Shown in pieces: positions 13,161 through 19,241 of a stretch of 25,937 nt of DNA. Made by a program: the position numbers and the translations under genes. Location of the stretch: IMG/VR virus record IMGVR_UViG_3300020465_000085, positions 1 to 25,937 of that record, one strand, 5' to 3'. The stretch is from a virus. The notes below the pieces were generated by a model. The model did no database searches and had not been told where the DNA came from. It saw only the letters and a list, made by a program, of their open reading frames with translations. How positions within the stretch are numbered: position 1 is the first letter of the stretch; every line of letters starts with the position of its first letter.

Positions 13161-13328
13161 ATGATTATTATCTATCAAGAGCACATCGACGTGCTGGAGA
13201 CAGAGCTGATTGAGCTGAAGGCTGAGAATAGATTCTTGAAAAAATTACTGGAATATAAATCGTTGGGTTGGCCTTACGAGCCGAATTCAACATCAGCACC
13301 AGAGCCGACTTCTGCGTCTTCTAAATAG
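13161..13328 (+). CDS. Tiny leucine-zipper-like protein
   Basis: This encodes 55 residues. The first half is a regular heptad helix (IYQEHIDVLETELIELKAEN, then RFLKKLLEY). The second half is a low-complexity Ser/Pro/Glu tail. Directly before the start there is a short hairpin (TGGCC ... GGCCA, 13142-13162) that could cover the start codon. The last 55 bp run antisense to the opposing gene 13274-13576, and in both genes this shared DNA encodes a loose tail. The function is unknown; such helices often mediate dimerisation. Confidence 0.6.
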   Translation: MIIIYQEHIDVLETELIELKAENRFLKKLLEYKSLGWPYEPNSTSAPEPTSASSK

Positions 13329-13576
13329 CCTGGCCTCCAGCCGCTTTGCCAGATCTCCCTTGATTTAATGTGGAGTTGTTCAGGTGTTTTATTGTTCTCG
13401 TGTAAGTAAGCAATAATTATATCTTTGAGATGATCGTTCGTTGCGTTATACCGATTGAGCAACCTTGCTAGGTCAACGATATTTTGCTTGGTTAATTCTT
13501 TAAGACTCTTAGAGACTATCTCCTCGATAAGAGGTCGATCGTAAAGATGCATAGGATGAGAAGCCAAACCATTCAT
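13274..13576 (-). CDS. Hypothetical helical protein
   Basis: This encodes 100 residues, largely helical (IEEIVSKSLKELTKQNIVDLARLLNRY), with a Trp-Arg-Pro-Gly segment near the end and a flexible Gly/Asp tail. It ends in the 55-bp overlap with the tiny + gene. A TATCTTGCA box lies 14 bases upstream of its ATG but in the opposite orientation to the gene. No family is recognised. Confidence 0.65.
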   Translation of the reverse strand: MNGLASHPMHLYDRPLIEEIVSKSLKELTKQNIVDLARLLNRYNATNDHLKDIIIAYLHENNKTPEQLHIKSREIWQSGWRPGYLEDAEVGSGADVEFGS

Positions 13577-13589
13577 TTTTTGCGTGCTT

Positions 13590-13598
13590 TATCTTGCA
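13590..13598 (+). promoter_or_regulatory. TATCTTGCA box at edge of repeat block
   Basis: This is another copy of the nine-base element. Unlike the copies at 76, 9386 and 18921 it points away from the nearest gene start (ATG 13576, minus) and towards the GGTACC cluster. It may serve the non-coding block and not the gene. Confidence 0.35.
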
Positions 13599-13611
13599 TT
13601 TTGTACGAAAA

Positions 13612-13864
13612 GGTACCAGGGTAACCGGGGTACCACGCTTTTCTTAACCTTTCTGAGAAATTCCCCCTCCTTTTCTTATTCCTTCTATTCGATTTGTTCC
13701 TTAATCATAGTTGATCTGTAAAGGGTAAAAAGAGAAAGCAGGGTGTCTATTTTCTGAATAAAGGTTAAGAGAAGTCTGGAACCTCGGTACCTTAAATGAG
13801 ACTCATTTATTGACAACTATTTTCAGGAGGCGATAGTGGTACCTGAAACAAAAAGCCTGGTACC
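13612..13864. repeat. Cluster of five GGTACC sites
   Basis: GGTACC occurs at 13612-13617, 13629-13634, 13786-13791, 13838-13843 and 13859-13864, and a related GGTAACC lies at 13620-13626. The same hexamer appears only at two other places that I found (about 1564 and 4909). The block is the main gene-free stretch (13577-13936) next to the 3' end of the primase-helicase gene. Repeated short palindromes beside a replication gene suggest an origin or protein-binding array. No other gene or RNA is visible in this gap beyond the palindrome and terminator listed. Confidence 0.5.
13793..13809. promoter_or_regulatory. Perfect 17-bp palindrome
   Basis: TAAATGAG and CTCATTTA are perfect eight-base arms around a single A. 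It lies inside the GGTACC block, directly beside the third copy. The short spacer favours a site for a dimeric DNA-binding protein over an RNA hairpin. It is a candidate operator or origin-binding site; which protein binds it is unknown (the regulator at 16748 is one candidate). Confidence 0.5.
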
Positions 13865-13867
13865 TAG

Positions 13868-13899
13868 ACAATAAAAAAGACCGCCATTACAGCAGTCTT
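13868..13899 (-). terminator. Rho-independent terminator of primase-helicase gene
   Basis: On the minus strand AAGACTGC (13899-13892) pairs with GCGGTCTT (13884-13877), eight pairs including one G-T. The loop has seven bases and a run of T follows. It lies 38 bases past the stop of the primase-helicase gene and should end that transcript before the GGTACC block. Confidence 0.75.
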
Positions 13900-13936
13900 A
13901 AAGCAAACAGTATTAGGACTCAACGATAATAGACAG

Positions 13937-16282
13937 TTAAGACTTAATCCAAATACGTTTTGGAGCACCATTCTCCTTAATTCTTTTAGGTTTGCAGTTC
14001 ATTCTTTTCATGCAATCAGTGATTTCCCGAGTCATTTGTCCGTGCTGAGTAACAGGAACATCTAAATGTCTAAACATATCAGCAAGAGTTACGTAAGGTA
14101 ATCCCTGATGCCAACCGCTGGTTTCCTTAATTAGAACATTAGCTACAGCAAGTTCGATAGGACTGTCCTTAGTAAATGAATCGGTGTACTCAGAAATGTG
14201 ACTTAATTCGTGGCTGCTAAATACATTGACTGGGTTATCTAAGTAATGCTTGTAAGCAGCATGCCAAATAGAATCACGATCTTTTTTGAGACGATCTAAA
14301 TCAATGATCTTGATATTAGGGTCTTCTTTAGAAGCAACCTTACCAAGTACTTGAATAGGAAGGAATCTTCTATTACCTGTTGGGTCGGAAAGGAAATCAG
14401 GACTGTTAGTAGCACCAGCTAGAACAAACGCTCTGGGATAAGACTTCTCGTTTTCATATTTACGAGCAGATCTATCAACGCTAACTGATATCAAGTTCTT
14501 TAATTCCTCAGAGAATTTGCGTTTTGTGTATCTTTCAAATTCATCCATTACAACAATAAAGCCAGCATGAAGAGCATGAGGTCTGGAACTCAGGTACTCA
14601 ATCGACTGCTGCATTGTTGTAACCCAAGGATAAGTTCCGTCGAGTGGGTTGGGTGGAGTGAGGTATTGGAAGAATGTTGACTTACCACAATTCTGACTAC
14701 CAATAAGAATGGGCATCCAGTCATGACGACAGCCTTCCGACATCACCCGATTAACAGCACCAATCAGGAATCGTTTAAGAATGAGATCTGCTAACCGAGT
14801 ACCGCAGGGCATGATTGGATTTTGAACTGGATCTGGAGAAACTCCAAGCAGTTCAGTTGCTAGACGATCAAAGTAAGGACAAGGATCAGTGGAAGAAGCA
14901 CAAGCAGTTAGATACTTCTTAACTGGGTGGTATCTATTTTCGTAAGCAACTTCGGTAGCAATATCAAAGACTAATGTTTTAGGAAAGACTGTTCCTTCTG
15001 TCCTGCTGACATTGAGGTACATCAACGTCGGGTCATGGATTGGACGTGGACTTCCTTTAGGTCCAAACTCCAACTGCTGGTTCATGACATTTAGTCTTAA
15101 GCCGTTGAAGTTTCTATTAATAACTTCTCTTATGCGATCAACTTGGTTCTCTCCACGACGACCTCGACCTGCGTCTGGAGGATCAAAAGAATCTGGATCT
15201 TCTTCTTGACCATCGTAAAAAGCATCGACTTGGTTATCTGGTTCCTCAGTTTCTATAACTGCTGTTTGTGACCAAGAAGGTTGTTCGCTAAATAGTCCTT
15301 GAGTAACAGTATCAGCAGGAATGAAATCTTCATCCTCATCTAGTCCCAAGAAAGCAGAGTGTTCGTAGCCTGCAAAAGATTTGCCGTAGATACCTGTAAG
15401 AAAATTACCGCCATCACTTTTTAGTTCGGGCGGCAAATTCTTCCTCCATTCGGAATCACTTTCTGTAGCAGCAGTGAAGATTGCTCCTAAGTGATCACCT
15501 CTGAATCCACGGAAAAACTTTTCACTAGTCTGTCCTCTCTTCTTGCCGTGATGCCCTCGACTTGCCCAGTCAGACCAATAAGGAAATACTTCATCACCTC
15601 CAGCTCGAGCAGCAGTTGTTATTCGCAGGAACTTTTCACGGTCACCATCTTCTGTTGGTGCAATGACATTTTCTAAACAGTAAATAGCAAGTTGGATGGA
15701 ATGATCATCAATATCTTCTTTGCGGCGGTCATATGTATTACGTCTAATAACTAATGCTTTTTTCGCGTCCTCAATAATAGTGTGATCTAAAACAGCATCT
15801 TCGTTGAACAGAGGTTCGCTTGCTTTATCGTTTCCATAGAAAGTACGGCAGCAATCAGTACATTGTTTATCTCCTCCAGTTTGAGCAACAAGCAGAGTAA
15901 CGATCTCCTTATATAGGTCAGGATCTTTTATAAATTCTGGAAGTTGAAATACAACGCGAAATCTTTCCTTATTAATAGCAGGGTCATGACTGGTGGTTGT
16001 ATAGACCCATGCTGCTTTGTCTGCTAATGGTTTCGATAAAAAGCCCTCAATAGTTAAGCCATCATCTACATCAACAACAGCAAGAGAACTTCCATTAAAA
16101 GCAGCACTGTTTCGATGATCTCCCTTCATCTCGGCTGCTACAAAAGCAGACCCTTGCATCACTTGTTTACGTAGGTCTTCTAATGTGCCGGTATGTTTCT
16201 GCCAGTTAAAAGCAAATTTACTTTCCCAGTGGGGTGGTTTGTTCTTTATTGAAGGGTGAATACTGAAGCTTAATTCGCTCAC
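13937..16282 (-). CDS. Primase-helicase: AEP-like N-terminus plus VapE-type ATPase
   Basis: This 781-residue protein is expected to prime and unwind DNA at phage replication forks. The N-terminal third has the archaeo-eukaryotic primase pattern: AVVDVDDG with metal-binding DVD at 71-73, TTTSHDPA with His99, RFRVVFQLP, and CCRTFYG at about 144-150. The middle (160-385) is a linker with an acidic stretch. The C-terminal part is a VapE-type helicase: Walker A GSQNCGKST at 528-536, Walker B VVMDE at 577-581, sensor ATN at 624-626, and TGNRRFLPI at 635-643. It is divergent from the XRE-type regulator, which may control it across the 465-bp gap. A terminator follows the gene, and beyond it lies the GGTACC block. 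No polymerase gene is seen beside it. Confidence 0.9.
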   Translation of the reverse strand: MSELSFSIHPSIKNKPPHWESKFAFNWQKHTGTLEDLRKQVMQGSAFVAAEMKGDHRNSAAFNGSSLAVVDVDDGLTIEGFLSKPLADKAAWVYTTTSHDPAINKERFRVVFQLPEFIKDPDLYKEIVTLLVAQTGGDKQCTDCCRTFYGNDKASEPLFNEDAVLDHTIIEDAKKALVIRRNTYDRRKEDIDDHSIQLAIYCLENVIAPTEDGDREKFLRITTAARAGGDEVFPYWSDWASRGHHGKKRGQTSEKFFRGFRGDHLGAIFTAATESDSEWRKNLPPELKSDGGNFLTGIYGKSFAGYEHSAFLGLDEDEDFIPADTVTQGLFSEQPSWSQTAVIETEEPDNQVDAFYDGQEEDPDSFDPPDAGRGRRGENQVDRIREVINRNFNGLRLNVMNQQLEFGPKGSPRPIHDPTLMYLNVSRTEGTVFPKTLVFDIATEVAYENRYHPVKKYLTACASSTDPCPYFDRLATELLGVSPDPVQNPIMPCGTRLADLILKRFLIGAVNRVMSEGCRHDWMPILIGSQNCGKSTFFQYLTPPNPLDGTYPWVTTMQQSIEYLSSRPHALHAGFIVVMDEFERYTKRKFSEELKNLISVSVDRSARKYENEKSYPRAFVLAGATNSPDFLSDPTGNRRFLPIQVLGKVASKEDPNIKIIDLDRLKKDRDSIWHAAYKHYLDNPVNVFSSHELSHISEYTDSFTKDSPIELAVANVLIKETSGWHQGLPYVTLADMFRHLDVPVTQHGQMTREITDCMKRMNCKPKRIKENGAPKRIWIKS

Positions 16283-16747
16283 GACTGATAACTCTATACG
16301 AATACTTAGTGTGCCTTGGTTAACGCAAAGAACAACTAGTTTTAATAACTTCTATGGTATTCGGTATGCATATTTGATTACTAAGTTACATTTTCTCGTC
16401 TGTTATAGGTAACGAAGTGTTACTGATTAAGTAAAAAAACGCACTCAAAACCCCTAAAATTAGTCATTCTCCTGTGGAAAAAGTCATTTAAATATAAATT
16501 TTTCTTACTAAACGTTCAATTGTCATTAATTTTGCATCTTTGGATGTAGCGCCATGACTGCCTTTTTCGTATTATTGAACCTAAACACCTTTATGAACAG
16601 TTTGTATTGGCGATCGTACAGAAATGTACAGGTGCTATACGCTTATAGATGAAGGTCTGCCTATTGCATACTCCAACTGTCACTTCCATAGAGTGAACTT
16701 CGACCTGAGGAGAACAATTCCCCAATTAACTCCACTTTTTCTCAACC
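16283..16747. promoter_or_regulatory. Divergent intergenic control region
   Basis: This 465-bp gap separates the primase-helicase start from the regulator start. It is AT-rich and must hold both promoters. Visible elements are GTAAC-n5-GTTAC at 16409-16423, a GGCGATCG at 16609-16616, and two GTACAG copies ten bases apart (16616-16621 and 16626-16631), the spacing of one helical turn. No convincing protein gene or structured RNA was found in it. A 32-codon frame at 16553 was rejected. Confidence 0.5.
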
Positions 16748-17563
16748 ATGCAATCTAAAAAACCTAACAAACCTATTGGTGAGGGCGACAACGCCACAGA
16801 GATTAGAAGGTTTATTGAATCTCTGAACCAAGCAATGGTTATGCATGACATCTCTCAAAGAAAACTTGGAGATGAAATTGGAGTATCGATTGGTACTGTT
16901 ACTAAATATTTAAGGGGTGAAGTTAATCCTTTTGATGTAAGGTCAAGAATCACGAGAAACCTTGCTAGTAAATTAGGTATTACAACTGAAGCTCTTTATA
17001 ATTTTTACGATACTGGTGAATATAAAGATACTCTTACTATTAAAGATGTGGAGAGTTGGATTAGAAGTACCAGCGAGTCAAAAGATTTACCTCGCATCTT
17101 ATCAGCCTTATCTGTTAGTCAGAAGAAGTTACAAGGAGATGACTCGTCTGAGTCGAAGGTAGTAGTGGAGAAGAATGCAGAACCTCCTAAACCTTCAAAA
17201 GCTGATATAGCAAAATTTGGAAAACAATTAGCTATTCATTTCCAAAAGATAAGAAAGTATGAGGCGTTAAATACAAGAGAGACTTGGAAGTTATTCCTAA
17301 AACAGGATTATGCGAAAAGTATTAGTAAAAAACACCTGGAACAAATACAAGATGTTCTTACGGGAGAAATTGAATTAACGTTAGACATTCTCATAGGTTT
17401 TGGTAAAGCCCACGGAAGATGCCCTATTTATATGGTCTTTAGCAGAATGAGTGAAACACCTTTTAGCACTGAACTAGAAACAATTCACAGTAAAGTTGTT
17501 ACATGGCATTGCTTCCATCTAACTGGTCAAATTCCAGAAAATGTAGAATCCATTTACGAGTGA
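16748..17563 (+). CDS. XRE-family (helix-turn-helix) transcription regulator
   Basis: This encodes 271 residues. Residues 22-85 form a typical Cro/C1-type helix-turn-helix: ISQRKLGDEIGVSIGTVTKYLRGEV is the core, with the recognition helix at about 48-57. The remaining 185 residues are helical with a charged linker (about 140-165) and no recognised ligand domain. It faces away from the primase-helicase and probably controls early or replication genes from the shared gap. No integrase is nearby, so it need not be a lysogeny repressor. Its stop overlaps the opposing gene by 10 bp. No clear ribosome binding site precedes the ATG; GGAGA is 30 bases away. Confidence 0.85.
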   Translation: MQSKKPNKPIGEGDNATEIRRFIESLNQAMVMHDISQRKLGDEIGVSIGTVTKYLRGEVNPFDVRSRITRNLASKLGITTEALYNFYDTGEYKDTLTIKDVESWIRSTSESKDLPRILSALSVSQKKLQGDDSSESKVVVEKNAEPPKPSKADIAKFGKQLAIHFQKIRKYEALNTRETWKLFLKQDYAKSISKKHLEQIQDVLTGEIELTLDILIGFGKAHGRCPIYMVFSRMSETPFSTELETIHSKVVTWHCFHLTGQIPENVESIYE

Positions 17564-17851: not shown

Positions 17852-17959
17852 ATGACACCTGAAGCAGAGAAGTTCAATGGCTGGGCGGCAATGCTCGGAA
17901 TCGTTGCAGCGTTTGGTGCTTATGCCTCTACTGGTCAACTTATCCCTGGAGTTTTCTAA
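17852..17959 (+). CDS. hli: High-light-inducible protein (short)
   Basis: This is a 35-residue one-helix protein of the chlorophyll a/b-binding superfamily. The helix motif reads EKFNGWAAMLGIVAAFGAY, where the usual Glu-x-x-Asn-Gly-Arg-x-Ala-Met has Trp (residue 11) in place of Arg. The typical tail TGQLIPGVF is present. HLIPs sit in thylakoid membranes, bind chlorophyll and dissipate excess energy, and phage copies help keep photosynthesis running during infection. It is followed by a second HLIP in a TAATG overlap. The changed Arg might affect pigment binding or pairing. Confidence 0.9.
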   Translation: MTPEAEKFNGWAAMLGIVAAFGAYASTGQLIPGVF

Positions 17960-18156
17960 TGACAGATTCCTCTATTACAACTGAATATGGCAAACAAAAC
18001 ATCTTTGGTAAAGAGACTCAACCACGATTAGTAGAGGAATATAAGGGTTATATCAAAGAAGCAGAACTAGCTAACGGTCGCTGGGCAATGATGGGTTTTA
18101 TCGGCCTTCTTGGTGCTTACATCACTACTGGGCAAATCATCCCTGGAATCTTCTAA
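17959..18156 (+). CDS. hli: High-light-inducible protein (long)
   Basis: This encodes 65 residues. An N-terminal polar extension (TEYGKQNIFGKETQPRLVEEY) precedes the canonical motif EAELANGRWAMMGF (Glu36, Asn39, Arg41) and the tail TTGQIIPGIF. The intact Glu/Asn/Arg set supports chlorophyll binding. It pairs with the short HLIP directly upstream; the overlapping TAATG suggests equal production. Its last 90 bp are antisense to the C-terminus of the exonuclease gene. Confidence 0.95.
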   Translation: MTDSSITTEYGKQNIFGKETQPRLVEEYKGYIKEAELANGRWAMMGFIGLLGAYITTGQIIPGIF

Positions 18157-18918: not shown

Positions 18919-18920
18919 AT

Positions 18921-18948
18921 TGCAAGATATTGTTACATATAATGTAAC
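18921..18948 (-). promoter_or_regulatory. TATCTTGCA box and GTTACAT dyad before exonuclease gene
   Basis: TGCAAGATA at 18921-18929 reads TATCTTGCA in gene direction, three bases before the ATG. Next to it is a perfect inverted repeat GTTACAT-ATA-ATGTAAC (18932-18948). The dyad is a likely operator for a dimeric repressor. The box matches those before the genes at 93 and 9379. Confidence 0.5.
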
Positions 18949-19006
18949 GCTTTCTTACAAAATATAACGATTAGTAGACAAGAATAGTTGGGACTTACAC
19001 CATTTA

Positions 19007-19111
19007 ATGCATCCTTATAGCAAGCCCCTAATGGGGAATCTCAACCCTGGAACCACTTGCTATCCGCGAACAGAACACAGATTAGAACGACAACTTCTCT
19101 TTCTCCAATAG
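19007..19111 (+). CDS. Possible 34-residue micro-protein
   Basis: A short + frame reads MHPYSKPLMGNLNPGTTCYP followed by RTEHRLERQLLFLQ. The composition (Pro, Tyr, Arg, Gly and a final amphipathic helix) is more protein-like than random AT-rich DNA. It has no ribosome binding site and no recognised family. It is the only candidate gene in the stretch 18919-19241, which otherwise holds the dyad above and a small CCCC-TAAT-GGGG hairpin at 19025-19036. Confidence 0.3.
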   Translation: MHPYSKPLMGNLNPGTTCYPRTEHRLERQLLFLQ

Positions 19112-19241
19112 ATCACAATACATGTCTCCTCATGTACTGAACTTAATTATCGGTCCGAATAATCAAGGATCTAAGGAAATGTTCTAATAAGGCAGGTATG
19201 CTCTCAGGTCATGCAACCCTGTAAATGGAAGCCCAGCCTAA

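Follow-up and report, generated by a model that had tools for sequence, protein, structure and literature searches.

A conserved iteron block directly behind a primase-helicase gene is a candidate replication origin in putative cyanophages

Results

A probable iteron origin lies behind its initiator gene

We analyzed a 25,937-bp stretch of viral DNA (the window, which is probably a fragment of its genome) and conclude that the non-coding block directly behind its primase-helicase gene is probably an iteron replication origin, read by the product of that gene as initiator. We observed a layout of two repeat sets that is conserved beside the gene, a repeat whose sequence changes lineage by lineage, and a primase-helicase whose domain make-up includes a predicted C-terminal winged helix. 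These observations, together with the position of the block and its parallel with known origins, support the original prediction that an origin is located here. The features are collected in Table 1. A cyanobacterial host is suggested by the presence of a high-light-inducible protein gene (phrog_178, 17959-18156), which shares about 90 bp with the 3' end of an exonuclease gene convergent to it.

Table 1. Coordinates of the block, its repeats and the neighboring genes within the window
Feature	Position	Strand	Basis or remark
DUF3288-like protein gene	13274-13576	-	PF11691, E 1e-6; starts just past proximal iterons
Proximal iteron set, three tandem copies GGTACCCC / GGTTACCCT / GGTACC, 8-9 bp period	13612-13634	-	sequence
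Long inverted repeat, right arm, 29 nt	13624-13652	.	83% complementary to 13760-13788
Spacer between iteron sets, candidate melting region, about 120 nt	13651-13770	.	34% GC
Promoter-like TATGAT, weak -35	13709-13704	-	by eye; not called by program
Long inverted repeat, left arm	13760-13788	.	
Distal iteron set, inner part: GGAACC (13778), GGTACC (13786)	13778-13791	+	inverted relative to proximal set
Dyad TAAATGAGACTCATTTA	13793-13809	.	conserved
Distal iteron set, outer part: GGTACC at 13838 and 13859	13838-13864	+	
Intrinsic terminator of primase-helicase gene	13877-13899	-	pattern; T run conserved
Primase-helicase gene: primpol-like N-terminus, VapE-like helicase domain (PF05272), predicted winged helix at the C-terminus	13937-16282	-	
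XRE-type regulator gene	16748-17563		

A palindromic hexamer is clustered in the block

The block carries five GGTACC sites within 253 bp (at 13612, 13629, 13786, 13838 and 13859), a GGTAACC at 13620-13626 and a 17-nt inverted repeat with an odd centre (TAAATGAG-A-CTCATTTA, 13793-13809). All of these elements were located where they had been described, between the DUF3288-like gene and the terminator of the primase-helicase gene, and the terminator itself is borne out by its pattern (13899-13877 on the minus strand). The earlier count of only two further GGTACC copies in the window was also confirmed, these lying at 1564 and 4909. The total of seven compares with 2.17 expected and was reached in none of 100 shuffles, while the probability that five of seven random sites fall within 253 bp was 1e-6 by simulation and 9e-7 analytically. 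When all 350-bp windows were scanned for 6-mer clusters, the block ranked first in the whole window; in larger relatives, coding repeats score above the block, and in five records (G004, G006, G011, G013 and G016) it falls outside the top five. The idea that this restriction-type palindrome is otherwise avoided in the phage found no support, since the two sites outside the cluster match the roughly two expected by chance.

The sites form two oppositely oriented sets on either side of a spacer, the proximal set spanning 13612-13634 and the distal set 13778-13864, and positions 13856-13865 match 13611-13620 perfectly over 10 bp in inverted orientation.

Relatives retain the sites and change their sequence together

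Comparison was made with 17 further viral or genome-bin contigs of up to 85 kb, whose primase-helicases are 53-91% identical. A non-coding block of 250-350 nt occupies the equivalent position in 17 of the 17 other contigs read, and 17 blocks, the window's included, were used for the alignment, with the most distant (L033 and L035) judged by eye only. Searching named phages at the DNA level, with the block and the primase gene as queries, gave no match.

The nearest relatives (L005-L007) retain four of the five GGTACC, with GGTGCC replacing the third in L005 and L006. More distant relatives are without the GGTACC cluster, showing single copies at most, and GTACCCC, GTCACCC or GGCACCC substitutes for GGTACC in most copies at once. 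The proximal sites align as GTCACCCCC-GGCACCCT-GGTACT in L008, GTCACCCTT-GGCACCCT-GGCACC in L010 and GTGTACCCC-GCGTACCCCT-GTACCC in L012, and beyond the spacer the copies of relatives are inverted (for example, GGTGCCAGGGTC versus GACCCTGGCACC). Conservation of the hexamer, proposed earlier as a check on the origin, thus holds among near relatives, whereas distant ones lack the hexamer cluster and keep the sites, in a different spelling that is mostly uniform within any one genome. Because the alignment reveals the sites of distant relatives in another sequence, the hexamer GGTACC is not itself the repeat unit; judged from the aligned blocks, this unit spans 8-9 bp, with the consensus GG(T/C)ACCC(C/T), and the KpnI-type palindrome, which the repeat happens to include in the window's lineage, is incidental.

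Among sites in the predicted orientation, T occupies the variable position of this consensus in 30 of 34 from three lineages (window-type, L012/13 and L014), and C does so in 39 of 47 from the other marine lineage, the relatives behind both counts not being independent of one another. Most sites of the non-palindromic lineages lie in the predicted orientation. Within a genome, the copies tend to vary in concert. This is expected for the binding sites of a single co-evolving protein and suggests that one protein recognizes them all.

Two contig-level observations were made along the way. The L033 record (G013; 85,174 bp) has a 114-bp exact direct repeat at both ends, which suggests that this phage group is represented there by a full-length genome, although the ends of the record are listed as classed by IMG/VR. 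Relatives of the primase-helicase also occur in L039-L041, contigs binned as the Euryarchaeota MAGs SP67 and SP338, and these are likely mis-binned phage contigs.

The spacer, the conserved dyad and a possible promoter

The gap had been described as AT-rich, and this applies well to relatives, most of whose spacers have 18-37% GC and rank within the top 0.01-2% of AT-rich 100-nt windows of their genomes, the G+C-rich L033 genome being an exception with a spacer of 54% GC. The window conforms only mildly, at 38.6% GC for the block and 34% for its core, and its spacer falls in the top 4% of 100-nt windows for AT-richness. Within the distal half, the dyad is a candidate second protein-binding site: a relaxed form, (T)GAGTCT(CA), lies 129-150 nt past the primase stop in 11 of the 12 records scanned and is the sole copy in several records of up to 85 kb, and the twelfth record (G003, the same sequence as L005 in this region) carries variants of it.

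A promoter-like TATG in the spacer is conserved among the aligned relatives. This TATGAT/TATAAA-like element points to the DUF3288 gene, which the proximal iterons precede and whose start codon they directly adjoin in many relatives, as would be expected if the block were the operator and promoter of that gene, with the repeats serving as sites for the XRE regulator or for the primase-helicase acting as repressor, and with no replication start. We consider such a purely regulatory block unlikely: at least seven sites, distributed across some 250 bp to either side of the spacer, are more than an operator usually has, and in phages whose downstream genes are different, this position is occupied by unrelated iterons. 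Dual use of the block as origin and promoter is possible, and the promoter-like element may have a regulatory role alongside origin function or instead of it.

Two other non-coding stretches of the window were noted. An AT-rich gap of 465 nt (16283-16747) separates the divergent primase-helicase and XRE-type regulator genes and is possibly an operator set of the latter; GTTACAT is found at 16385 and likewise at 17498 and 18932. Upstream of the exonuclease gene, a non-coding stretch of about 320 nt (18919-19241) contains the palindrome GTTACATATAATGTAAC (18932-18948) and the inverted repeat GATAGCAAG...CTTGCTAT, both of which are present in relatives G002 and G003, and the single-strand fold of GATAGCAAG...CTTGCTAT was no better than that of shuffles.

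Secondary structure varies among relatives

The window's block contains 29-nt inverted arms and folds as DNA far better than shuffles (z -6.2), and stem-loop origins have precedents in the plasmid pRN1 and phage BIP-1 (PMC4234260). The primase-helicase could accordingly recognize a large DNA stem-loop rather than iterons; we find this quite improbable, however, given how unevenly the structure is kept. The long stem-loop 3' of the gene is strong in the window and in L012 but weak or absent in several relatives, with fold z-scores of -0.8 in L005, -1.0 in L034 and +0.4 in L039, and in the second marine lineage the arms are mismatched (AACC versus AAGTTT). Variant forms of AACCTTTnTTAGA are present in both arms of relatives, and the tandem copies on one side change too, a change that pairing would not call for.

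The same inverted repeat, matched by an Rfam miRNA model at 28 bits, could be read as a structured non-coding RNA, which is very improbable: that match stems from the repeat itself and lies far under the gathering score of 90, no Rfam family reaches threshold in the window and the pairing is not kept across relatives. The clustered inverted motifs and the dyad would also suit a parS-like partition site, which the original prediction had allowed for, or a recombination or attachment site. We give this reading hardly any credence, as the position of the block is tied to the primase-helicase gene and a search of 14 related records, possibly fragments, revealed no ParA-type ATPase (AAA_31) and no integrase (PF00589) over threshold, with one weak integrase match in G012. 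DNA polymerase A likewise had no match over threshold in the 14 related records.

The primase-helicase ends in a predicted winged helix

The N-terminal part of the protein is matched by phage primase families and has primase-polymerase-like motifs by reading, and the helicase domain matches by sequence the PDB entry 7pds, 'similar to D. nodosus vapE' (E 2e-19). Whole-protein structure prediction, from 11 sequences, was poor in the helicase part, and therefore only the C-terminus was used for structure. AlphaFold2 predicted this segment as a winged helix (pLDDT 86) comprising residues 708-781, encoded by about 13940-14161, and its fold matches were generic winged helices, with no close relative among those listed. 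The recognition helix starts with TRE, SQD or SRN in proteins accompanied by T-type iterons and with NIP or TTP in those accompanied by C-type iterons, a pairing that may reflect a link between these residues and iteron specificity.

Taking the block as an iteron origin, the C-terminal winged helix would bind the 8-9 bp iterons, and the two oppositely oriented sets would lead to the loading of two helicase hexamers face to face across the spacer. The opposed hexamers could then melt the AT-rich spacer, and the N-terminal primase domain would prime replication in both directions from this site. GC skew, proposed as a further check, showed no switch at the block in 12 oriented records, which neither helps nor hurts the origin reading.

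Iteron clusters follow VapE-type helicase genes in other phages

We scanned 19 named phages and satellites with a VapE-type helicase for 6-mer clusters and observed that the cluster ranked first was a set of iterons just 3' of that gene in nine (the Javan86 satellite, S-LBS1, LfeSau, Fontainebleau, FutureBee, SamW, Emery, bIL312 and PS3), against a chance expectation of well under one, a rough estimate derived from about 1/115 to 1/882 per record and uncorrected for intergenic bias. The other ten were without a rank-1 cluster there; S-2L and VarioGold had weak clusters only, and Haddon, PM708P3, LNTR3 and SJC09 had none in the same scan. Lactobacillus phage LfeSau, Acutalibacter phage Fontainebleau, Marinobacter phage PS3, Paenibacillus phage FutureBee and Corynebacterium phage SamW thus resemble the window in layout but differ from it in their hosts and in their unrelated downstream genes, and their clusters are not annotated as origins. 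The PS3 iteron, GGTCACCCC, is close to the repeat of the second cyanophage lineage.

The Synechococcus phage S-LBS1 is a cyanobacterial phage with iterons (GCCTAACCT) in two sets behind its primase-polymerase gene, although the iteron sequence differs, the copies are more numerous and the genome is richer in G+C. In its unannotated region 34236-34641 (record L086), at least nine copies flank a purine-rich spacer on both sides and a stretch of about 100 nt is duplicated, which makes the region a candidate for the origin of a cultured cyanophage. An origin of a Streptococcus thermophilus phage was reportedly described by Foley in 1998, and we found no open-access text on Sfi21-type origins or cyanophage iteron origins. 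For the terms searched, the S-LBS1 paper mentions no origin or repeats of its own (PMC6157547).

Discussion

By analogy, the block fits a kind of origin described before in phage satellites and plasmids. In PICIs, rep is followed immediately on its 3' side by the origin, in which two iteron sets surround an AT-rich region (PMC6092414), and the C-terminal domain of SaPI Rep recognizes its origin (PMC7581432). The PICI/SaPI rep-ori units (SaPIbov1, EcCICFT073; SaPI5 Rep) share with the window two iteron sets flanking a spacer, a location immediately 3' of a VapE/D5-type helicase gene and a C-terminal DNA-binding domain, which here is predicted. The present system differs in that it occurs on phage contigs of 20-85 kb rather than on a small satellite with an integrase, in that primase and helicase are fused, in the modest AT-richness of the window and in the extra conserved dyad TGAGTCTCA.

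The Sulfolobus plasmid pRN1 provides a second parallel, as its essential origin, a stem-loop, lies 3' of ORF904 (PMC4234260). ORF904 likewise joins a primpol domain, an SF3 helicase and a C-terminal winged helix and has its origin directly 3' of the gene; pRN1 requires the stem-loop and has no iterons, whereas here the iterons are the conserved element. In phage P4, short repeats are recognized by the winged helix of the alpha primase-helicase (cited in PMC4234260), although the P4 primase is of the Toprim type.

If the origin reading is correct, the block would provide an uncultured group of putative cyanophages with a candidate origin defined at the sequence level, and the lineages with differing repeats would constitute natural initiator/iteron pairs for studying how a winged-helix initiator reads its origin. 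It would also be evidence that ordinary phages share an origin layout that the literature presents as a peculiarity of phage satellites.
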